The position numbers were made by a program, and so were the translations under genes. The notes below the pieces were generated by a model. The model searched no databases. It was not told the DNA's origin and saw only the letters and a program-made list of their open reading frames with translations. From an uncultured bacterium (GTDB taxonomy: Bacteria > Cyanobacteriota > Vampirovibrionia > Gastranaerophilales > Gastranaerophilaceae), in contig CACXCI010000062.1 of the NCBI GenBank assembly GCA_902766105.1, positions 1 to 64,000 on the forward strand: DNA of 64,000 nt. The letters run 5' to 3'. Positions 991 to 11,503 of this stretch are shown here, piece by piece. Each line of letters starts with the position of its first letter. Positions within the stretch are counted from its first letter, which is position 1.

Positions 991-1713
991 ATGGATAGAG
1001 ACAGGGTTAAAATACAGGGATTGGGAATTGATAATTGCTCTATGGATGAGGCTGTAGATTATGCTTATTCTAATGGCGGGCAAATCGTTACAATTAATCC
1101 TGAGATGATTTCTTATGCAAAGAAAAACCCGTATTTTACTGATATTGTTTCCTCAGCCGAGCTTGTTATTCCTGATGGTATCGGAGTTCAAATCGGGCTG
1201 AAAATTCTTGGATATGACGTTAAAAGAATCCCCGGTATTGAACTTGGAAAGGCCTTGATTACAAAATTTTCCGATAATAACAAGTCTGTTGCTTTGGTTG
1301 GTGCGAAGCCCGAGATATTAAAACTAACTGTAAAAAATCTTATAAAAGAGGTTGAAAATATAAACATTGTGTATGCACACGACGGTTATTATAAAGATGA
1401 AGATGAAATAGTAAATGCACTTGTTGATTCTAAGCCTGATCTTGTTTTGGTGGCTTTAGGTTCACCTAAGCAAGAATTTCTTATTAATAAATTAAAGACA
1501 AAACTTCCAAAGTCTGCTATGATAGGTCTTGGAGGTAGTTTTGATGTATGGTCAGGTGTTGTAAAAAGAGCTCCTAAAATATATCAAAAATTAGGCTTGG
1601 AGTGGTTGTATCGTACAATAAAAGAACCGCAGCGTTTAAAAAGAATTTTCCCAGCTCTACCGGTATTTATTTTTAAAGTTTTAAAAGAAAGGTTATTTGA
1701 CGGCAAATGTTAA
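991..1713 (+). CDS. WecG/TagA/CpsF family glycosyltransferase (GT26)
   Basis: 240 residues, the usual length for this family, which transfers N-acetylmannosamine or a related amino sugar from a UDP-sugar to a lipid-linked saccharide at the cytoplasmic membrane. Recognisable family motifs are TINPEM near residue 35, PDGIGVQIG near 62, and LVALGSPKQEFLI near 155, followed by GLGGSFDVWSGVVKRAP. The C-terminal WLYRTIKEPQRLKR is also typical. It is the first gene of an operon whose second gene (transketolase N-half) overlaps it by seven bases. The precise acceptor cannot be told from sequence. The start is preceded directly by a -10 box rather than a ribosome binding site. Confidence 0.88.
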   Translation: MDRDRVKIQGLGIDNCSMDEAVDYAYSNGGQIVTINPEMISYAKKNPYFTDIVSSAELVIPDGIGVQIGLKILGYDVKRIPGIELGKALITKFSDNNKSVALVGAKPEILKLTVKNLIKEVENINIVYAHDGYYKDEDEIVNALVDSKPDLVLVALGSPKQEFLINKLKTKLPKSAMIGLGGSFDVWSGVVKRAPKIYQKLGLEWLYRTIKEPQRLKRIFPALPVFIFKVLKERLFDGKC

Positions 1714-2531
1714 CACAAAATGAAATTGATGAATTAGAAAAATTAGCGTTAGAAAATAGACAAAATATAATAAAAATGGTTTATGAGGCTCAGTCAGGAC
1801 ATATTGGAGGATCATTGTCTGCATGTGATATTCTTACAGTGCTGTTTCATAAATGTATGAATCATGCTGTGGGTGGTAAATTCTCTCCTGAGTATCCGAA
1901 AAGAGATAGATTTGTATTATCAAAAGGTCATGTTTCACCTTTGTATTATTCAATATTAGCGCAGCTAGGCTTTTTTGAAAAGGAAGAACTCATGACATTC
2001 AGAAAGCTCGGCACAAGGCTTCAGGGGCATCCGTCAATGTGGACCCCGGGGGTAGAGGTTGCAACAGGCTCGCTTGGACAAGGCTTATCTATGGCTTGTG
2101 GTATTGCTATGGCTTTGAAACTTGAAAAAAATACTTCAAATGTTTTTGTTTTGTTAGGAGATGGTGAATTACAAGAAGGCAATGTATGGGAAGCTTTTAT
2201 GCAGGCAGGTCATAGAAAGTTGGACAATATAATTGCTATTGTTGACAGAAATTGTTTACAAATTGATGGTAATACAGAAAATATAATGGCTTTAGATAAT
2301 TTGTCCGATAAAATAAAGGCATTTAATTGGAATGTTATGGAAATTAATGGTCATGATTTTAATGATATATATGATTCTATTGAGAAGGCAAAATCTATAA
2401 ATGCTCCGACTTGTATTATTGCACATACAGTAAAAGGTAAAGGTGTAAGTTTTATGGAAAACAATGCAGGTTGGCATGGTAAAGCCCCTGGTAAAGAGGA
2501 TTATGAAAAAGCAATTAAAGAGTTAATATAA
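1707..2531 (+). CDS. Transketolase, N-terminal (thiamine diphosphate-binding) subunit
   Basis: 274 residues, matching the PP-binding half of transketolase as found in organisms with split enzymes. Visible motifs: GHIGGSLSACDIL near residue 32, SKGHVSPLYY near 73, the GxG-type TGSLGQGLSMACG near 121, and the diphosphate/Mg site GDGELQEGNVWEA followed by an acidic/Asn segment near 153. The enzyme moves two-carbon units between sugar phosphates in the non-oxidative pentose phosphate pathway. The partner half is encoded at 62640-63605, about 60 kb away, instead of adjacent. The gene overlaps the wecG-like gene by seven bases, so translation is probably coupled, and the prepilin gene follows after ten bases. 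Confidence 0.93.
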   Translation: MLTQNEIDELEKLALENRQNIIKMVYEAQSGHIGGSLSACDILTVLFHKCMNHAVGGKFSPEYPKRDRFVLSKGHVSPLYYSILAQLGFFEKEELMTFRKLGTRLQGHPSMWTPGVEVATGSLGQGLSMACGIAMALKLEKNTSNVFVLLGDGELQEGNVWEAFMQAGHRKLDNIIAIVDRNCLQIDGNTENIMALDNLSDKIKAFNWNVMEINGHDFNDIYDSIEKAKSINAPTCIIAHTVKGKGVSFMENNAGWHGKAPGKEDYEKAIKELI

Positions 2532-2541
2532 TGGAGGTCTG

Positions 2542-5190
2542 ATGAAAATTATAAATCGCAATAAAAAATACGGTTTTTCATTGATGGAGTTAACGTTGGC
2601 TGTGCTAATTGTTGCTATTTTGATAGTTATAACGTTACCGATAATAAACAGACAATTAGAAAAATCTGAAGAGTATTCCTATTTTATGGCATATAAATCT
2701 GTTGAAAAGTTGGCAGGTCAGATTGTTGCATTAGGAGACGACAGCGAAGATGCTTATGTCATGAAACCGCAAAAAACTCCTTTTAAAGATGTCATGTTAG
2801 CAAAATATAAGGATACTAAGTTTAGACTGAGTCGTATTGTTTCAAAATATAAGAATAAATTGGCTTTTTCAGAGATTTACGTGTTTTCAAAATTGTTTCC
2901 AAAAACTATGGCAGAAACAGTTGTCGTTGAAACATGGAATCATTATGCTTATGAAGAATTGTGGTTAGGTTATCATGCTTGTAAATATGCTGCAAACAAA
3001 GGTACCGAAACAAGAACTATAAATGTTGGCGGAAAGAATGTTACATTTACTGTGTTCAAGTATAATGATTCTGATATACAAAAATCCACGAAAGAGGTAA
3101 AATCAAAAGTAAAAAATGACGATGGCACAGAAACAGAAAAAACAACCAGTGTGCCTGTATATTACAGTATTTATGACTATAATTGTTGTGCCGGTTATAC
3201 CCATGAAAACGCTGCATGCAGAGTTCAAGATACTGATAAAGGTGATTATCAGTTAGCAGCTTCAAATGAAACTAATACTCTTACTATTGACGGGAAAAAA
3301 TATTCTTTAGTTTTGAGACAATCTCCTGTTCATTCAGTATTAAAAAATACTATGTTCCAAGAAGGAGCATGTCCTGCGTCAAGTTCTCAATTGAGTACTG
3401 TTGCTAATGTGATTACAGGAATAACAACAAGTGAGCAGGATGGAAAAGTTGTTTTGAGTAAATCCGCTTCTGATTTTTGTTCTTCAAGTGATTTTAAAGG
3501 CAAATGCTCAGGCTGTACGGTATCTTTCAACGTTACCGATGGGTCTGCTGGTGGAACAACATATAAAAATTCTGAGGATGCAGATGAAGATGAAGAAGGA
3601 GAGGAAATGGTAGACAAGGCTCCTCGTTCTTCTGTTATGGGTACCTGTTCTGTTTCTAAAAACGTGTCAACCTCAAGTAGTTCCGGCAGTTCTTCTATTG
3701 CCAGTGTTGCACGCCCATCATATCCTGCAAATTGGTGTACAAACTACAGAGATAGCGAAGGTCATCAAGTTTACTATGGTATGACGAACGCTGCTGCGAC
3801 AACGTCCATAGATTGTCAGCCTATGTCCGGATATGTAGTTGCAGCTAATAATGAAAAATTTGCATCGTTGCCATGTGCCGAAGGTCAAACCTTATATGCA
3901 GCATTTAATTCTATAACTAATACTTATTCTGCAGTTTGTACTGCGACTGATTTTAATGAATATACTCAAAAAGCTTGCGGAGCTCACTCGGTATATGCCG
4001 GTGGTACTACTTGTGAGTGTGTTTCAGGATGGACGAAAAATGCCAGCGGTGATTGTTCCGTTAGAGGTGAGTGTCCAAAAGGTACTCAACAAGCCTCAGA
4101 TGGTACTTGTATAACTAACCCGCCTATTATTAAGGCTAAAAAATTCTGCGAATTGGTAGATAAAAACTGGAATTTGGATAGTAAAAATTGTGATACTTTC
4201 ACTAACGGAGTATATACCTCCGTGTATAATGCCGCATTGGGTAATGATTCAAATCATGTATATCTTTCTATAAATAGCAAACCTAACGCATTTAGAGATA
4301 TAACCCCCAATATGGTGTTGGCAAACGGTTTGAGAATTTGGATATTAGGCGATAAAGCTGCATCAGTTCCCGGACTGTCATACTTCCCCGAAAACTTTTC
4401 TAAGAGTGTAAATAGCAGACAAAATATGTGTGAAAGAGTTTCCTTAACATCACATACTGAAGCTGCTTGTAAGTCTGCTACAAGTAATAAAGGGTATTTT
4501 TGCTCTAATGATAAAAATTGCTTTAAATTGGATAATTCAAGTTATGCAACCGGTACTCGTACTGTTGAGTTAAAAGATGCAAGAGGCTGTTGCTCTTCAA
4601 CTGATTTCACCGATTTACATACACTCTCTGAAGCGGCAGGAGATTCGAGATTGTACTTAAAAGATCCTACAGTATATGCTATAGGTGGTTATACAATATT
4701 TGTCGATATAAATGGCTCAAAGGGTGAAGGTACTTTGTGGGATGATGTTTTCCCATTCTATATTTCATCTAATGGCACAGTATATCCTGGGTATCCGTTA
4801 GATTCAGAAAAAGCTAAAAAGAAAGCAAATGGAACGGATACCGGTAATAGTTTGTATTTGGGCGGAAATAGTGATAAACAGCTTCCTGTAGATGTTTATT
4901 ATTATGAAGCTTCATCAAGTGGAGAGTCAAGAGAAAAGAAGGTTGCTTTCGCCAATGTTTCTTATGCAAGAGGCATGTGTTCGGCACGTAAAATCAGCAA
5001 ATATACTCCATACTGTATGAACCTTGGTAAACGGTATAAAGGCAAAGGTCTTAAAAAGACAGCATCCGGATATACTCCTGTTGACTTACCTGAAAATTAT
5101 ATAGCACTTGATGCTTCGACAAACTCTTATAATCCGTGCGATTATTTTGTATGTTATGTATCAGTTAAAAATAAATTGAGATTTTTCTAA
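2542..5190 (+). CDS. Very large prepilin-like protein with cysteine-rich, EGF-like ectodomain
   Basis: 882 residues. The N-terminus carries a textbook type IV prepilin site: KKYG before the cut, then FSLMEL with Glu at mature position 5, followed by a ~20-residue hydrophobic helix (residues 15-40). After it comes a long ectodomain with many cysteines. A segment near residues 480-525 reads C-x11-C-E-C-VSGWTKNASGDC, an EGF-like spacing. An acidic, Ser-rich linker (DADEDEEGEE) lies near residue 350. Near residues 725-750 VDINGSKGEG...VFPFYISSNGTVYP resembles the Ca/Gly loop motif found near the C-terminus of many pseudopilins. Typical pilins have 140-200 residues, so the ectodomain is exceptional. 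It has a strong ribosome site (TGGAGG) and is cotranscribed with the wecG-like and transketolase genes, ending at a terminator. A surface adhesin or tip subunit is inferred. Confidence 0.82.
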   Translation: MKIINRNKKYGFSLMELTLAVLIVAILIVITLPIINRQLEKSEEYSYFMAYKSVEKLAGQIVALGDDSEDAYVMKPQKTPFKDVMLAKYKDTKFRLSRIVSKYKNKLAFSEIYVFSKLFPKTMAETVVVETWNHYAYEELWLGYHACKYAANKGTETRTINVGGKNVTFTVFKYNDSDIQKSTKEVKSKVKNDDGTETEKTTSVPVYYSIYDYNCCAGYTHENAACRVQDTDKGDYQLAASNETNTLTIDGKKYSLVLRQSPVHSVLKNTMFQEGACPASSSQLSTVANVITGITTSEQDGKVVLSKSASDFCSSSDFKGKCSGCTVSFNVTDGSAGGTTYKNSEDADEDEEGEEMVDKAPRSSVMGTCSVSKNVSTSSSSGSSSIASVARPSYPANWCTNYRDSEGHQVYYGMTNAAATTSIDCQPMSGYVVAANNEKFASLPCAEGQTLYAAFNSITNTYSAVCTATDFNEYTQKACGAHSVYAGGTTCECVSGWTKNASGDCSVRGECPKGTQQASDGTCITNPPIIKAKKFCELVDKNWNLDSKNCDTFTNGVYTSVYNAALGNDSNHVYLSINSKPNAFRDITPNMVLANGLRIWILGDKAASVPGLSYFPENFSKSVNSRQNMCERVSLTSHTEAACKSATSNKGYFCSNDKNCFKLDNSSYATGTRTVELKDARGCCSSTDFTDLHTLSEAAGDSRLYLKDPTVYAIGGYTIFVDINGSKGEGTLWDDVFPFYISSNGTVYPGYPLDSEKAKKKANGTDTGNSLYLGGNSDKQLPVDVYYYEASSSGESREKKVAFANVSYARGMCSARKISKYTPYCMNLGKRYKGKGLKKTASGYTPVDLPENYIALDASTNSYNPCDYFVCYVSVKNKLRFF

Positions 5191-5199
5191 TGTGATAAT

Positions 5200-5233
5200 A
5201 AATGGGTTTGGATATTCCAAGCCCATTTGTTTT
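5200..5233 (+). terminator. Rho-independent terminator of the wecG-tkt-prepilin operon
   Basis: A 12-bp stem (5200-5211 with 5217-5228, one G-T pair) closes a five-base loop and is followed by GTTTT. It lies directly after the prepilin stop codon. An in-frame ATG at 5202 falls inside this stem, so it is not the start of the next gene. Confidence 0.8.
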
Positions 5234-5249
5234 GGAGGTTGGTAAAGTG
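5234..5249 (+). promoter_or_regulatory. Ribosome binding site that fixes a GTG start
   Basis: GGAGG at 5234-5238 lies eight bases before GTG at 5247-5249. This supports the GTG start of the YhcH-family gene over the upstream ATG buried in the terminator. Confidence 0.75.
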
Positions 5250-5693
5250 ATAGTAGATAAATTATCAAATATAGGTATATATTCAGAAATTCCAAGTTGT
5301 GTAAAAACTTTTATACAAAGTATTACACCAGATATAGACTTTGGTCGCTATGAGCTGGAGAATAACTCTTATGTAAATATTGAAGCTTATACCACAAAAA
5401 TGCTATCAGAGGCTAAATTTGAGGCTCATAAAAAATATGCTGATATTCAAATATTGTTGTCAGGCATAGAAAAAATATATATAAAGCCTGCAGATACTTT
5501 GATTTGCCCGCTTGAATATAATGAAGATAAAGATATAAGGTTTTTTAATGACGATATAAAATCTTCAGACTATGTAACACTTGATGGCTCAAATTTTGTA
5601 TTTATATACCCGCATGAAGCACATGCCCCGCAAATTGCATTTGATGATACACCCCAACAGGTTAAAAAAGCTGTTGTTAAATTATTTCTTTAA
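5247..5693 (+). CDS. YhcH/YjgK/YiaL (DUF386, EbgC-like) family protein
   Basis: 148 residues from the GTG start, the usual length for this family of small cupin-fold proteins, which include the EbgC subunit of evolved beta-galactosidase and proteins associated with sialic-acid catabolism. Supporting features are the opening MIVDKLSNIGIY, the central FEAHKKYADIQILLSG (metal-binding His/Glu region), a KDIRFFNDD segment and the end FIYPHEAHAPQIA. The family start MI-x-D-x-L agrees with choosing GTG 5247. Its biochemical role is probably handling a sugar anomer or ketose/aldose, but the substrate is unknown. The stop codon overlaps the converging miaA gene by 12 bases. Confidence 0.85.
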   Translation: MIVDKLSNIGIYSEIPSCVKTFIQSITPDIDFGRYELENNSYVNIEAYTTKMLSEAKFEAHKKYADIQILLSGIEKIYIKPADTLICPLEYNEDKDIRFFNDDIKSSDYVTLDGSNFVFIYPHEAHAPQIAFDDTPQQVKKAVVKLFL

Positions 5694-6566
5694 TTTATCG
5701 GGATAAACATCCCATATAATTTCTTCGTTCTTTCTAAACCACGTAAGTTGTCTTTTGGCATATCTTCTTGTGTTTTGCTTTAGAACATCTTTTGTTTCAT
5801 CAAGTGTCATTTTCCCGTCTAAATAGCCTATTACCTCTTTGTAGCCGATTGTTCCAATAAGATTTTTTATCCTGCCGTGCTTTGAAAGTAAGAATTTGGT
5901 TTCCTCAACTATTCCCTGTTCAAACATTATATCAACTCTTTTTTCAATCCTTTGGTAGAGAGTTTTTCTGTCGAAATTTTTACCAATCCATTCAATATTA
6001 TATCTTGCCGTATTTATTCCTCTTGAATCATTAAGAGATTTTCCTGTTGCTTTAAGAATTTCGATAGCTCTGACAATCTTTCTTCTGTCATTTATATTTA
6101 TTGTTTTTTCAGCATTTTTGTCAAGTTTGACTAACTTAGAATATAGGGTATCATTGTCTAATTCTGATAGTTCTGCTCTAAGCTGTTTATTCGGTTCTAT
6201 TCTCGGTAAATCATAGTTTTTTAATAAAATATCTATGTACAAACCAGTTCCGCCAACAATGATAGGTGTTTTGCCTTTGGCTATAATAATATCAATAAAT
6301 TTTGAAGCATCATCTTTGTATAGACCTGCAGTATAGTCAAATTCTGGCTCAACTATGTCAATCATATAATGAGGAATGCCTTCTTGTTCTTCAATTGTAG
6401 GTTTTGCTGTTCCTATATCAAAGCCCTTGTATACTAACCGTGAGTCAGCTGATATAATCTCGCCATTAATCTGTTTGGCCAAGTCAATAGCAAAAGCTGT
6501 TTTTCCGCTTGCTGTAGGGCCAACAACTGCGATAACTTTATTGCTGCTTGATAAAGGTTTGCTCAT
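5682..6566 (-). CDS. miaA: tRNA dimethylallyltransferase
   Basis: 294 residues from the chosen ATG (MSKPLSSSNK). It adds a dimethylallyl group to A37 of tRNAs reading UNN codons. The P-loop GPTASGKT appears near residue 16, followed by the substrate-binding region SADSRLVYKGFDIGTAKP, IVGGTGLYIDILL near 95, and the conserved C-terminal QNTRRYAKRQLTWFRKN. Another in-frame start eight codons upstream is possible, but the family normally begins only a few residues before the P-loop. It is the last gene of a five-gene minus-strand operon and its start lies inside the 3' end of the membrane-protein gene (29-base overlap). Confidence 0.95.
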   Translation of the reverse strand: MSKPLSSSNKVIAVVGPTASGKTAFAIDLAKQINGEIISADSRLVYKGFDIGTAKPTIEEQEGIPHYMIDIVEPEFDYTAGLYKDDASKFIDIIIAKGKTPIIVGGTGLYIDILLKNYDLPRIEPNKQLRAELSELDNDTLYSKLVKLDKNAEKTININDRRKIVRAIEILKATGKSLNDSRGINTARYNIEWIGKNFDRKTLYQRIEKRVDIMFEQGIVEETKFLLSKHGRIKNLIGTIGYKEVIGYLDGKMTLDETKDVLKQNTRRYAKRQLTWFRKNEEIIWDVYPDKLKK

Positions 6567-7272
6567 AATATGTAAATAATAGCACAACAATATAAACTAA
6601 AATATAATAAAATGTAATCAACATAAAAAATGTAATAATTGGGTGCATTGTTAATTGAAAATATATCACTAAAGAAAAACATAATAAAAACAAGATTATT
6701 ATGTATAAAAATAGAGATTCCCAAAAATTCATAAATACTTTGCAAATAGAATTATATAGAGCTGTTATAGTGTTTTTCTTATTGTAAACTACCTCAGGAA
6801 TCCATAGTAAAGTTATAAAAGCTACGACTAATAACCCTATAGTTATCATTAAATTCCAATAGTTTGCAAGTTCGCCGATTTTTGTTATTAGAAAAGCAAA
6901 TAATGAAAACATAACTAAATATATTATTATATAGAGTGCAATTACACTTGTGATAGGTAACAATAATCTTCCAATACCTTTTGGAAGAGAGCAAATAAGC
7001 TCAAAAATAGCTTTTATTCTGTCATTTTCAAATAAATATATGTTTTCAGACATAGCAATAGCTTTTTTCGTCATATATAGCCAAGCTGATAGAAAACCGC
7101 TCAGCATTATCAAAAAAGTCCCAAATGCAAAGAATAATTTGAATGGATTATCTGCGGCAAAGCTAGCATAACTAAGGTATAACCCCAATAATGTAAAAAA
7201 TATTATAAGTGGCGTTGCTAAGATTATACAATTATTTGTAGTTTTAAAGCTCTTAACTAAAATATCAAACAT
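6538..7272 (-). CDS. Polytopic membrane protein of unknown function
   Basis: 244 residues with about six hydrophobic helices: residues ~15-38, 45-67, 98-128, 135-158, 185-210 and 213-236. The arrangement resembles YciC/DUF975-type small integral membrane proteins, but I see no signature motif. It sits between the CoA-activase-like gene and miaA with a 10-base gap before it and an overlap after it. GGGTGAT precedes the ATG by a few bases and serves as a ribosome site. A start of translation far from any promoter suggests expression from the sigma-factor operon promoter. Confidence 0.75.
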   Translation of the reverse strand: MFDILVKSFKTTNNCIILATPLIIFFTLLGLYLSYASFAADNPFKLFFAFGTFLIMLSGFLSAWLYMTKKAIAMSENIYLFENDRIKAIFELICSLPKGIGRLLLPITSVIALYIIIYLVMFSLFAFLITKIGELANYWNLMITIGLLVVAFITLLWIPEVVYNKKNTITALYNSICKVFMNFWESLFLYIIILFLLCFSLVIYFQLTMHPIITFFMLITFYYILVYIVVLLFTYYEQTFIKQQ

Positions 7273-7282
7273 TTATCACCCA

Positions 7283-8425
7283 TTATTTTGTGCTAATTGC
7301 CTTTTGTTTTTCCATTTGACGTTTTCTCTTACGTCTTCTCATAAGATCAACAAAAGCCTCAATTCTTGTGATATAGCCTGCTCTGCCGGTTTGTTCATCC
7401 ATAATCAAAGGCAGAATAGGAATATCACAATCCTCTCTCATTGCAGGAAAGATATTTTGTGACATAATTTCAGGCATACAGGTAAACGGGCTGATGTGTA
7501 TAATTCCGTCAATTCCTCTTTCATTTGCATAAGCAACATCAGAAACACATTCCAAGGCATCTCCACCGATATCACGCATTAAATAAGGTTTTGCCAGCCT
7601 GTTTGCACGCTGAAGATGAGTTTCGCCTTTCCTAAAAATTTTTGGAATAATTGCATCTTTTAAGAAACTGCTGACAGTCAGACTTCTTCTTGTTTGTACA
7701 CCCATTCTGCCAAGTTCTTTTTCAATATTCTGATTAGAAAATTCATCATTGACCAGATAAATTTCACCTGTTATATCAACATTTAAAACCTCTTTATTTG
7801 GATTTATTTCTACTTTTTTCATCTCTTCATCGACAAGCTTTTGTGCTTTTTTTAAGCCAAAGAAGGTATCGTAAGAATCAATAATTTTCAATGATTTGTT
7901 GTAATGTTTTTCAGCATCACCTTGATGAATTTCTCTAGCTCTGTAGTACGAGAGTTTTGCTTCTAATTTGTCTATTAAAAAAACTTTAAGCATTGCAATA
8001 AATATAGCTCTGACAAATAATAACGGAGTATTTTTTCCGCTTGCTTCAACTAAAAAATTGTACATACCCTTTAAACCCTCATAGAGTTGCAATTCGAGAT
8101 ATTTTGCTTCATATCCCAAATCTGTTAGCGCATTGGCAATACATTTCCCGTATTCACCTAATCTACAGCAGCCGGGTGATGTAATCATCGCAACATAATC
8201 AGTACCGCCTTCGATTGCCTCAATAAAATTACCCAAAATAAGTTTGTATGGCAGGCAAATGGCTTCAGGCGCATGTTTTGTACCTAAAGACAATGCTTTT
8301 TTGCTTGTATATGGCTCTATATACGGTTCACAACCTATAATTCTGAGAGCGGCTGCCCATGCGTAGCATATTGTTCCCATGTGTGGGAATGAGATTTTTC
8401 TTTTTTTTGTGTCTTTTTTTGTCAT
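7283..8425 (-). CDS. Acyl-CoA dehydratase activase-related protein (2-hydroxyglutaryl-CoA dehydratase component superfamily)
   Basis: 380 residues. The N-terminus KISFPHMGTICYAW and the cysteine-bearing segment TSPGCCRLGEYGKC (near residue 85), together with EAICLPYKLILGN near 54, match the COG3581-type proteins. These are usually found either fused to or near the iron-sulfur activators of 2-hydroxyacyl-CoA dehydratases. A C-terminal segment IHISPFTCMPEIMSQNI with Cys near 318 is also conserved in that group. The cysteines probably hold an Fe-S cluster. No activator ATPase (ASKHA fold) is next to it here. It shares the operon with gcvPB (11-base gap). The reaction it supports is unknown. Confidence 0.78.
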   Translation of the reverse strand: MTKKDTKKRKISFPHMGTICYAWAAALRIIGCEPYIEPYTSKKALSLGTKHAPEAICLPYKLILGNFIEAIEGGTDYVAMITSPGCCRLGEYGKCIANALTDLGYEAKYLELQLYEGLKGMYNFLVEASGKNTPLLFVRAIFIAMLKVFLIDKLEAKLSYYRAREIHQGDAEKHYNKSLKIIDSYDTFFGLKKAQKLVDEEMKKVEINPNKEVLNVDITGEIYLVNDEFSNQNIEKELGRMGVQTRRSLTVSSFLKDAIIPKIFRKGETHLQRANRLAKPYLMRDIGGDALECVSDVAYANERGIDGIIHISPFTCMPEIMSQNIFPAMREDCDIPILPLIMDEQTGRAGYITRIEAFVDLMRRRKRKRQMEKQKAISTK

Positions 8426-8436
8426 ATTTATATTTC

Positions 8437-9858
8437 CTAATCTTTAAAATTCAAGTCCGGATGTCTTGCTGCATTTACCTCATCTATTTTCTTGACGGGA
8501 GTTGAATGTGGTGCATCAAGAATTTTTTGGGGGTTGGTTTTAGATGATTGAGCAATTTCAACCATAAGTTCTATAAATTCATCAAGCTTTTCTTTTGTTT
8601 CAGATTCTGTAGGTTCAATCATGATTGCCTCGTGAACAATAAGTGGAAAATACACTGTTGGTGGATGAGTATTTGCATCCATCATGGCTTTAGCAATATT
8701 TAATGTTGAAACGCCATTTTCATGTTTTTGCTTTTCCCCTGACAAAACAAATTCGTGCATGCAAGGTTCATTATACGGTAAATCATAATAATCTTTTAAT
8801 TTTTCTTTAAGATAGTTTGCGTTTAAAACTGCATTTTCTGATGCATCCTTCAGATTTTTACCCATCATCAAAATGTATGCGTATGCCCTGACTAAAACTG
8901 AAAAATTTCCGTAAAAATCTTTCACACTGCCTATAGAGTGCTTAATATCATAATTTTTAAAATATTTGTCTCCGTCAAAACATATAGTAGGTTTAGGCAG
9001 ATAATCTTTTAATTTTTCAACAACAGCAACAGGGCCGGCGCCGGGACCTCCACCACCATGTGGCGTTGAAAAAGTTTTGTGAAGATTAAGGTGTACAACA
9101 TCAAACCCCATAAGTTTTGGATTTGTATATCCCATAATTGCGTTAAAATTAGCTCCGTCGTAGTATAATAAAGAGCCGTTTTCGTGCATAATTTTCGAAA
9201 TTTCTTCGACTTTTTCTTCAAAAATTCCAAGGGTATTTGGATTTGTCATCATAATGGCCGCAACATCTTTATCCAGAACCGCTTTTAGTGCTTCTATATC
9301 TATCTGCCCTTTTTCGTTTGATTTAATTTCAACAGTTTCAAACCCTGCCATTTTAGCACTTGCAGGGTTTGTACCATGCGCAGAATCAGGGATAATCACC
9401 TTTTTACGATTTTCTCCAATTGTGTCAAAGTACTTTCTGATTATCATCATGCCTGTCATTTCTCCGTGAGCCCCTGCTGATGGTTGTAAGGTAATTGCAT
9501 CCATGCCTGTAATTTCAAGTAGTGCTTTTTGAAGGTTATACATAAGCTTTAATGAACCTTGAGAATCACAAGCACAAGAGCTTGGGTGAAGATTAAATTC
9601 TTCAAGACCGGACAAAAATTCATTTACTTTTGGGTTATATTTCATTGTACAAGAGCCAAGCGGATAAAATCCTTTTTCTATACAAAAATTCAAATCAGAT
9701 AGTGATTTGTAATGACGCATTACCTCTAATTCGCCAATTTGCGGCAAACCAATACTGTTTTTACGCAGAAAATTGCTCGGTATATAATCTATGTTTACCT
9801 TTTCATCTGTTAAATTGATTCCGTCTATACCGTTGCTCTTTTCAAATATTGTTCTCAT
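8437..9858 (-). CDS. gcvPB: Glycine dehydrogenase (decarboxylating) subunit 2
   Basis: 473 residues, the normal length of the PLP-carrying subunit of two-subunit glycine decarboxylase. The PLP lysine lies in NLHKTFSTPHGGGGPGAGP (Lys261). Other typical features are GSCTMKYNPK near residue 68, PSAGAHGE near 126 and PDSAHGTNPASA near 157. The enzyme releases CO2 from glycine and hands the aminomethyl group to the H protein. The partner subunit gcvPA and the genes gcvT and gcvH, which commonly adjoin it, are not in this window. The gene follows the sigma-factor gene by only three bases, which is an unusual neighbour. Confidence 0.96.
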   Translation of the reverse strand: MRTIFEKSNGIDGINLTDEKVNIDYIPSNFLRKNSIGLPQIGELEVMRHYKSLSDLNFCIEKGFYPLGSCTMKYNPKVNEFLSGLEEFNLHPSSCACDSQGSLKLMYNLQKALLEITGMDAITLQPSAGAHGEMTGMMIIRKYFDTIGENRKKVIIPDSAHGTNPASAKMAGFETVEIKSNEKGQIDIEALKAVLDKDVAAIMMTNPNTLGIFEEKVEEISKIMHENGSLLYYDGANFNAIMGYTNPKLMGFDVVHLNLHKTFSTPHGGGGPGAGPVAVVEKLKDYLPKPTICFDGDKYFKNYDIKHSIGSVKDFYGNFSVLVRAYAYILMMGKNLKDASENAVLNANYLKEKLKDYYDLPYNEPCMHEFVLSGEKQKHENGVSTLNIAKAMMDANTHPPTVYFPLIVHEAIMIEPTESETKEKLDEFIELMVEIAQSSKTNPQKILDAPHSTPVKKIDEVNAARHPDLNFKD

Positions 9859-9861
9859 AAC

Positions 9862-10479
9862 CTATATAATCCCCTGTTTAGTCAAGTCTTTCTTTATTCT
9901 GTCAAGTCCAGTCTGAATTATTCTTGAAATTCTTGACTGTGAAATATTAAATTCTTCTGCAATTTCTCTTAATTTTTTTTCTTTGAAAAACTTATATTCA
10001 ATCAGTTCTCTCTCTCTTGGAGGAAGCTTTTTCATTGCTTCTAATATTCCGTCTTTTAACTCGTAAAATTCTATGTTTTCTTCGGGATTTTTATCATTTG
10101 ATTTGATTTGTGTTGGGACTTCCGCTTCTTGTAATTCATCAATTGATAATATATTTTTATAAACTTCAGCTCTTATTTCTGCATCTTGAGTTTCGCTGTC
10201 TTCATCAATCACGCTTTGCTTATTTTTAAGAGTGTACCATTTATATCTTCTGCGAACTTCATTTCTTATAGCCCATTTTATAGCAGTAGACAAATATGTG
10301 CTGTTATACTCATGCGGTTCTTTATTCTTAAATAAAATATACAAGGCGTGAGTCCCTATGTTAACCAATTCCGGTAACTCTATTAAGTGAGATCTTGAAA
10401 ATTTTTGATATTCCACCTTTGCTATTATTTCAATTAAGTCTTTATACTCTCTAAGTTTTATATTTTCTTCTACTGACAT
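9862..10479 (-). CDS. RNA polymerase sigma factor of the sigma-70 family (group 3-like)
   Basis: 205 residues from ATG 10479, preceded by AGGA. Region 2 spans roughly residues 25-85 (SHLIELPELVNIGTHALYIL, then STAIKWAIRNEVRRRY, an LxxAIxxxIxxElR-like -10 recognition helix). Region 4 covers ~140-203, with LPPRERELIEYKF and the helix-turn-helix LREIAEEFNISQSRISRIIQ. The linker is acidic and short, so region 3 is reduced. Size and region layout fit the FliA/SigF/SigB-like alternative sigma group. A TTG start seven codons upstream is possible but lacks a ribosome site. It heads an operon with gcvPB, the activase-like gene, a membrane protein and miaA. Its regulon is unknown. Confidence 0.9.
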   Translation of the reverse strand: MSVEENIKLREYKDLIEIIAKVEYQKFSRSHLIELPELVNIGTHALYILFKNKEPHEYNSTYLSTAIKWAIRNEVRRRYKWYTLKNKQSVIDEDSETQDAEIRAEVYKNILSIDELQEAEVPTQIKSNDKNPEENIEFYELKDGILEAMKKLPPRERELIEYKFFKEKKLREIAEEFNISQSRISRIIQTGLDRIKKDLTKQGII

Positions 10480-10517
10480 TACTGTAACAGTCCTAATCAA
10501 ATAATATTCCTAATAGT

Positions 10518-10526
10518 ATAATAGCA
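10518..10526 (-). promoter_or_regulatory. Candidate extended -10 of the sigma-factor operon
   Basis: Read on the minus strand the bases give TGC-TATTAT, an extended -10 with one mismatch. A start about seven bases later leaves a leader of about 30 bases that contains the AGGA ribosome site. No convincing -35 is seen. Confidence 0.4.
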
Positions 10527-10597
10527 GAAAAATACCTGTGTGACCAGCTAATGTAATTTTCCTTAACATAAATTATATTCACAAATACAAGAAATTA

Positions 10598-11503
10598 TTA
10601 TCTAAGCAGATAATCTTTTATTGTTATCGTATCACCGTTTAACACCGCTGCTCCACCAATCGGTATAGTATCTTTTTGTATATCGTGAGTTAATTTGAAT
10701 CCTGAAATTATAGGAATATTATTTTTTTCTGCAATACTATATATTAGATTGTCAAAATACTCATTATTATCTATATCTAAAAAATCACCTAAAACAATAG
10801 CTTGAAGGTTGTTTTTGAATTTACTTATATTCAATAGCTGCGTAATATATCTGTCTACTTTGTAAGCTGGTTCATTTAAGTCCTCAGTAAAAAATATAAA
10901 TTTCTCATCCGGAACAAAGTCAGTACCGCATAATGATGATATTGTAGATAAATTTCCCCCAAAAACAATTCCTTCAGCGGTTATGTTCTTTGAATAGTAT
11001 TTGGGATAATCAGCCTTTAATTCAATTAAATCCGTTGTCAAAGCTTTGTAAAGCTTATCTTCTGTGTACATACAAATATTTTCTGATGAAAAATCACTCT
11101 GTGCCATTGGTCCTGAAAATGTTATAAGACCTGCTCTTTTTAAAATCATAGCATTTAATATTGTTACATCAGAATATCCGCAGAATATTTTGGGATTACT
11201 TCTTATTAAATTGTAATCGATTTTGTCAATAATTCTTAAAGCTCCATAGCCTCCTCTTGCGCAAATTATTGCAGCGACCTCACTATCTTCAAATGCACAA
11301 TTTATTGCGTTTGCTCTATCTTCGTCATTCCCTGCTAAATAATTGTTTTTATCAAATATATTTTTACTTAATTTTACCTTATAACCTTTGCATTCAAAAT
11401 ATGATTTTGCCGAATATATCTTATCCTTGTCGCAATCACCTGATGTCGCAATTATTGAGATAGTATCACCTAAATTTAACTTTTTTGGTTTAATTAAGTT
11501 CAT
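10598..11503 (-). CDS. ldcA: Muramoyltetrapeptide (LD-) carboxypeptidase, S66 family
   Basis: 301 residues, normal length for the LdcA/MccF family. This enzyme removes the terminal D-Ala from muropeptide tetrapeptides in the cytoplasm during wall recycling. Characteristic segments are IICARGGYGALRIIDKIDY near residue 78, the nucleophile Ser segment FCGYSDVTIL near 106, VFGGNLSTISSLCGT near 180 with the following EDLNEPAYKVDRY glutamate region, and a C-terminal segment with GFKLTHD that would supply the catalytic His. It diverges from dnaX across 40 bases. AAAGGA before the ATG is a good ribosome site. No other recycling gene is adjacent, although murI, amidases and glmS lie within the window. 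Confidence 0.9.
   Translation of the reverse strand: MNLIKPKKLNLGDTISIIATSGDCDKDKIYSAKSYFECKGYKVKLSKNIFDKNNYLAGNDEDRANAINCAFEDSEVAAIICARGGYGALRIIDKIDYNLIRSNPKIFCGYSDVTILNAMILKRAGLITFSGPMAQSDFSSENICMYTEDKLYKALTTDLIELKADYPKYYSKNITAEGIVFGGNLSTISSLCGTDFVPDEKFIFFTEDLNEPAYKVDRYITQLLNISKFKNNLQAIVLGDFLDIDNNEYFDNLIYSIAEKNNIPIISGFKLTHDIQKDTIPIGGAAVLNGDTITIKDYLLR

Follow-up and report, generated by a model that had tools for sequence, protein, structure and literature searches.

A giant Gastranaerophilales pilin enlarged mid-chain by about 460 residues and probably displaying an EGF-like arm

The gene at 2542-5190 of the window (the whole stretch of 64,000 nucleotides analysed here, from contig CACXCI010000062.1 of assembly GCA_902766105.1) was found to encode a giant modular pilin which is real, well conserved and belongs with the known modular type IV pilins. 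It is probably an ordinary pilin which has been enlarged mid-chain by about 460 residues so that the pilus can show a disulfide-rich EGF-like arm and grip an extracellular target. The acquisition of large modules within pilins is poorly documented; since one chromosomal slot is empty or holds a small, medium or giant pilin in related gut bacteria, modular pilin growth can be traced there stepwise. Moreover, the giant pilin is a concrete candidate for a surface-binding protein of the uncultured gut Gastranaerophilales. The coordinates of the gene, its parts and its neighbours are collected in Table 1.

Table 1. Features of the giant pilin gene and of its slot (window positions; residue numbers refer to the giant pilin).
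Feature	Position	Strand	Evidence
WecG/TagA/CpsF-family glycosyltransferase (WecG), first gene of the conserved neighbourhood	991..1713	+	PF03808 E 9.6e-54; synteny
Transketolase N-terminal half (TktN)	1707..2531	+	PF00456 E 1.5e-55; synteny
Class III leader peptide, residues 1-11, cleaved after G11	2542..2574	+	Sequence; TIGR02532 and N_methyl matches
Pilin helix alpha1, residues 12-70, E5 = residue 16	2575..2751	+	AF2 helix 3-64; E16 invariance; dN
Low-confidence linker opening the insert, residues 71-124	2752..2913	+	pLDDT <50 over 70-113 and 115-124
Insert domain 1, alpha/beta, residues ~125-395	2914..3726	+	AF2; column identity; dN; profile search
Acidic run EDADEDEEGEE, disordered loop, residues 345-355	3574..3606	+	Sequence; pLDDT <50 over 336-348 and 350-356
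Cysteine-rich module, small beta-hairpins with EGF-like features, residues 396-529	3727..4128	+	Even Cys; AF2; Foldseek
EGF_2-type signature C491-E-C493-VSGW-...-C505	4012..4056	+	Pattern match; 0.145% of shuffles
Last Cys hairpin C511-C523, collinear with the single Cys unit of some ordinary slot pilins	4072..4110	+	Junction comparison with ordinary slot pilins L124, L128 and L142
Pilin head, homologous to the ordinary slot pilin head, residues 530-882	4129..5187	+	hhalign; Cys even 28/28
Second, smaller insert inside the head, residues 613-705	4378..4656	+	Profile alignment; six Cys in all 28 homologues
DINGSKGEGTLWDDVFPFYI motif of the head (DING...VFPFYI, residues 722-741)	4705..4764	+	Common to ordinary prepilins
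DUF386 / YhcH-YjgK-YiaL family protein (DUF386), closing the slot	5202..5693	+	PF04074 E 2.7e-32; synteny

The open reading frame runs on the plus strand from the ATG at 2542 to a stop ending at 5190 and encodes 882 amino acids; a strong Shine-Dalgarno sequence is present in AATGGAGGTCTGATG, upstream of the ATG. The N-terminus reads MKIINRNKKYG followed by FSLMELTLAVLIVAILIVITLPII, with cleavage after G11, mature F1 at residue 12 and E5 at residue 16, and the mature size is 871 amino acids. The preliminary description of this DNA had proposed a prepilin site of the form G/F...E5, and this has been confirmed as G11/F12...E16. The TIGR02532 score lies above its cutoff (17.0 against 16.3). Pfam N_methyl falls just short of its cutoff when the protein is scanned singly (19.4 bits, cutoff 21.2) and exceeds it when the whole genome is scanned (25.1 bits). 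The giant pilin has the leader ending in G/A, the hydrophobic alpha1 and the E5 by which a type IV pilin is recognised. In known pilins, E5 serves the docking of alpha1 into filaments; it is invariant in 29 homologues of the giant pilin, whereas GspK of the type II secretion system (T2SS) is thought to be without it. Further, when close pairs are compared region by region, the dN of alpha1 is the smallest or nearly so. A random long ORF or a pseudogene was ruled out by the conservation of the gene in about 33 assemblies and by a whole-gene dN/dS of about 0.1-0.2 in the closest pairs, ratios which are approximate because dS is near or above 1.

Profile alignment with hhalign, in which 29 sequences (28 giants and one relative of 469 aa) were compared with 11 ordinary slot pilins, paired giant residues 530-882 with residues 99-295 of the ordinary pilins (prob 99.9, E 1.7e-34), and the head of the giant is thus homologous to that of other pilins. 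In the resulting layout, alpha1 occupies 12-70, the insert, about 460 residues long, 70-529, and the head 530-882. On sequence comparison, the signal, the helix and the head identify the predicted protein as a pilin with a clade-specific insert, and both the prepilin and the modular character proposed at the outset are supported. The layout implied by the preliminary description, with a DING/VFPFYI-type pilin motif added at the far end, was found to be wrong. The motif does occur at that position, but as the profile alignment maps 530-882 to the ordinary head, it is part of a pilin head which is ordinary and complete, with the extra modules placed between alpha1 and this head. Modules appended behind a small pilin were ruled out by the same alignment, which puts the head at the C-terminus. 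The acidic spacer noticed earlier corresponds to the acidic run at 345-355.

The very large mature size may raise the question of whether the giant protein is incorporated in the pilus filament. We consider its exclusion from the filament improbable, as E5 is invariant, the head is that of ordinary pilins and the assembly of large modular pilins is believed to proceed via their pilin module (PMC8179133). The full-length AF2 model has a mean pLDDT of 75 and a pTM of only 0.54, due to which the packing of the head on alpha1 and the geometry of the arm stay proposals of the model. A Foldseek search of the PDB with this model gave no match at E 1e-3 or better and was led by EGF arrays of the Pvs25/Pfs25 and NELL kinds, all non-significant. 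Searches of PDB sequences with the protein, head and insert profiles returned no informative match, and the Pfam scan of the giant pilin and its homologues recognised no binding or adhesion domain. The extra modules are present in the giants and absent from the ordinary homologues, and none is a functional domain recognised by Pfam.

Insert domain 1 was modelled with a pLDDT of about 65-87 over most of residues 130-330. Its mean column identity is 18%, and its dN is the highest or near-highest in most close pairs, reaching about 2-6 times that of the head in the closest ones. Such fast change is as expected for an exposed variable binding domain. The cysteine count of this domain is even in 26 of 28 homologues; in the copy of the window, several cysteines typical of the family are lost and an odd number (9) is left in this domain. 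Among 60 genomes from 41 genera, the profiles of insert domain 1 and of the cysteine module (A4 and A6) matched only genus g1, both modules being found nowhere outside it, and mobile domains spread through the family were rejected as the origin of the insert.

The cysteine pattern C-x11-C-E-C-x11-C with GW, reported earlier for this protein, is present exactly at C479-C491-E-C493-C505. Within it, residues 491-505 agree with the PROSITE-type EGF_2 pattern C-x-C-x(2)-[GP]-[FYW]-x(4,8)-C, which arises in 0.145% of 20,000 shuffles of the giant protein, and an EGF_2-type signature was also seen in 19 of 37 relatives, not all of them of full length. In the module, 28/28 homologues have an even number of cysteines, and so have 28/28 in the head; the 28 homologues share ancestry, however, and do not amount to 28 independent trials, and the analyst set the module boundary from the model and the alignment. 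In the module the counts span 8 to 16 and are always even, which indicates that cysteines are gained and lost in pairs. The even counts suggest disulfide pairing. The AF2 model of the module alone has a pLDDT of 86 and a pTM of 0.71, and its 12 best Foldseek matches in the PDB were the Pvs25/Pfs25 and NELL1/2 EGF arrays (E 0.05-0.4, TM about 0.2), none of them at E 1e-3. Weak PDB sequence matches of the module profile include factor X, and TNFR cysteine-rich domains also occur among the weak matches. With Pfam EGF families, the window protein gave a non-significant EGF_Teneurin match (E 0.16, 12.5 bits against a cutoff of 24.3), and cEGF was matched by 4 of 29 homologues (best 2.2e-4).

The module shares with the EGF-like domains of Pvs25/Pfs25, NELL and factor X the motif C-x-C-x2-G-[WY]-x(n)-C, the even cysteine number and the predicted small beta-hairpins; it differs from them in that the window protein has no significant Pfam or Foldseek match and the cysteine spacing varies among relatives. 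The EGF-like module of the preliminary description is partly supported: the signature, the even cysteines, the confident model and the leading EGF arrays favour it, but no structural match reached E 1e-3, and the Pfam EGF models matched few relatives and only weakly. 'EGF-like' is a reasonable label and a fair description of the sequence and the model, whereas a claim of membership in the EGF family would exceed the evidence. In the open-licence PMC papers, no paper was found on type IV pilins with EGF-like domains.

The giant pilin occupies a conserved slot. WecG overlaps TktN, the giant follows TktN by 10 bp, and DUF386 follows the giant by 11 bp, forming an apparent operon, and MiaA flanks the slot in the window genome. 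A scan with one genome per species (84,980 species) gave 36 loci in about 33 assemblies, including five other species of the same genus which carry orthologues. The homologue search proposed earlier for gut Gastranaerophilales has thus placed the gene at one locus in about 33 assemblies of this order; the complete giants measure 682-899 aa, and many of these assemblies are ruminant or other gut metagenome bins, judged by their titles. On every contig of sufficient extent, TktN precedes the giant and DUF386 follows it. Elsewhere in the family, the other genera have a prepilin of 242-334 residues between WecG-TktN and DUF386, or an empty slot; in genus g7 the slot pilin has 333 to 666 aa. Downstream of TktN, genera which are more distant have an ORF of about 311-341 aa, which in one locus (L132) is the transketolase C-half (PF02779 and PF02780). 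TktN of the window (1707-2531) stands without an adjoining transketolase C-half. In the TktN tree, the giants form one clade (support 0.894), and the genera beside it have either an ordinary pilin in the slot or none. Within the genus of the giants, one species (G139) shows a cleanly empty slot while its WecG, TktN and DUF386 are intact, and the giant pilin is dispensable because its gene is missing there. In another relative (L107), MiaA is followed by a 955-aa ORF (2075-4939) with no assigned function and by a 469-aa prepilin with a proline-rich linker (4966-6372).

These neighbours also bear on the earlier suggestion that the pilin could be glycosylated by the cotranscribed glycosyltransferase. 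The tight spacing of the genes would agree with it. However, many genera, and G139 as well, have WecG-TktN-DUF386 with no pilin in the slot, by which a pilin-specific glycosyltransferase neighbour was ruled out, and the enzyme is of the WecG type. The WecG/TagA/CpsF family acts on undecaprenyl-PP-linked sugars, which are lipid-linked polysaccharide precursors. The suggestion is left unsupported, and glycosylation of the pilin by this enzyme appears highly improbable.

The genome of the window (1.89 Mb, 110 contigs) was examined for the pilus genes whose absence, by the preliminary description, would refute its reading; a prepilin peptidase together with assembly machinery was found in it, and the reading survives this check. 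It encodes one A24 prepilin peptidase (PilD), a contiguous secretin-PilB-PilC cluster on contig C69, two PilT-like ATPases and a VKOR-family disulfide oxidase; of its 19 N_methyl matches, 13 exceed the Pfam cutoff. Little on pili in Gastranaerophilales was found in the open-licence PMC papers; an earlier paper reported such genes, of type IV pili, for a Gastranaerophilales genome from termite gut (PMC5877343). On contig C75 of the window's own genome (L066), three further giant prepilin-like proteins of 591, 818 and 683 aa are encoded (3195-4967, 6739-9192 and 9207-11255), all of which have a Peptidase_S74 (endosialidase-type chaperone) domain at the C-terminus together with a coiled-coil-like tail; an S74 module in pilins has been mentioned (PMC8179133). 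A 1045-aa ORF near the prepilin peptidase gene (L065, 11188-14322) has only a weak coiled-coil match in Pfam.

With moderate confidence, we favour the giant as a modular minor type IV pilin which displays a disulfide-braced arm for ligand binding. In the proposed mechanism, Sec would export the protein, PilD would cleave it after G11 and a VKOR-type oxidase system would close its disulfides. PilB/PilC would then build it into the filament through alpha1, presumably as a low-copy subunit. The head would pack onto alpha1 and the insert would loop out as an arm, in which the compact disulfide hairpins may form a stiff stalk holding the variable domain outside the secretin. Minor pilins determine what pili do, and the most likely role of this one would be ligand binding, in the form of adhesion to a gut surface, mucus, a feed particle or another microbe. 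Points against this reading are that no binding domain was recognised by Pfam or in the PDB searches, that the full-length pTM is low, that G139 does without the gene and that the window's copy shows cysteine losses and an odd count in insert domain 1. For the giant pilin, both adhesion and the tip location are inferred.

In Streptococcus sanguinis, PilB (vWA) and PilC (lectin) are modular type IV pilins, and the grafted module of PilB mediates adhesion (PMC8179133). They share with the giant the class III signal, alpha1 and extra modules which are not pilus-specific, and in both cases adhesion has been proposed along with assembly through the pilin part. A mucosal tip adhesin, as proposed in the preliminary description, would be plausible by this likeness to PilB. 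In PilB the module lies C-terminal to the pilin module, whereas in the giant about 460 residues lie between alpha1 and the head; moreover, the giant's module is cysteine-rich and without a recognised binding domain. In this placement the giant resembles ComZ of Thermus and GspK of the T2SS, where the extra domain also lies within the pilin module and is not appended to it (PMC8179133). These two carry a beta-solenoid and an alpha-domain as inserts, whereas the insert of the giant comprises a variable domain and a disulfide-rich module.

ComZ and GspK provide examples of large inserts whose known or proposed roles are other than adhesion (PMC8179133), and the giant could likewise be a non-adhesive pseudopilin or minor pilin, active in assembly priming, DNA uptake or substrate secretion, with the insert as a structural spacer. 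This would agree with the single PilB-PilC-secretin set found, which serves at least a dozen prepilins, and with the Pfam result for adhesion domains. However, insert domain 1 is clade-restricted and evolves faster than alpha1 and the head, which better suits an exposed ligand-binding part, and the loss in one species speaks for a dispensable protein. A non-adhesive role is therefore rated as rather unlikely, though it deserves more weight than exclusion from the filament.

The ordinary slot pilins, 242-334 residues in the eleven compared, share with the giant one chromosomal slot and homologous alpha1 and head, and they lack both the 460-residue insert and the six-cysteine head insert of the giants. 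In some of them one cysteine unit lies just upstream of the head. Among living relatives, the number of cysteine units in the pilin varies from one through a few to many, several of these versions being at the same slot. In the 666-aa slot pilin of genus g7 (L138), a 90-bp tandem unit at 5218-5445 (2.5 copies, 89% match) encodes the cysteine motif; a DNA repeat of this kind was sought in the window gene and none was found. Growth of the insert by duplication of a unit can reasonably be inferred from these sequences for the family, and for the window gene it would be a candidate route. That stepwise tandem duplication of the cysteine unit made the giant, with an independently evolved EGF-like stalk showing the variable domain to an animal host, is a speculative and on balance doubtful extension. 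Outside the TktN slot, a prepilin of about 580-595 aa in genus g22 (L171, 3646-5385) contains 51 cysteines in many small cysteine repeats.
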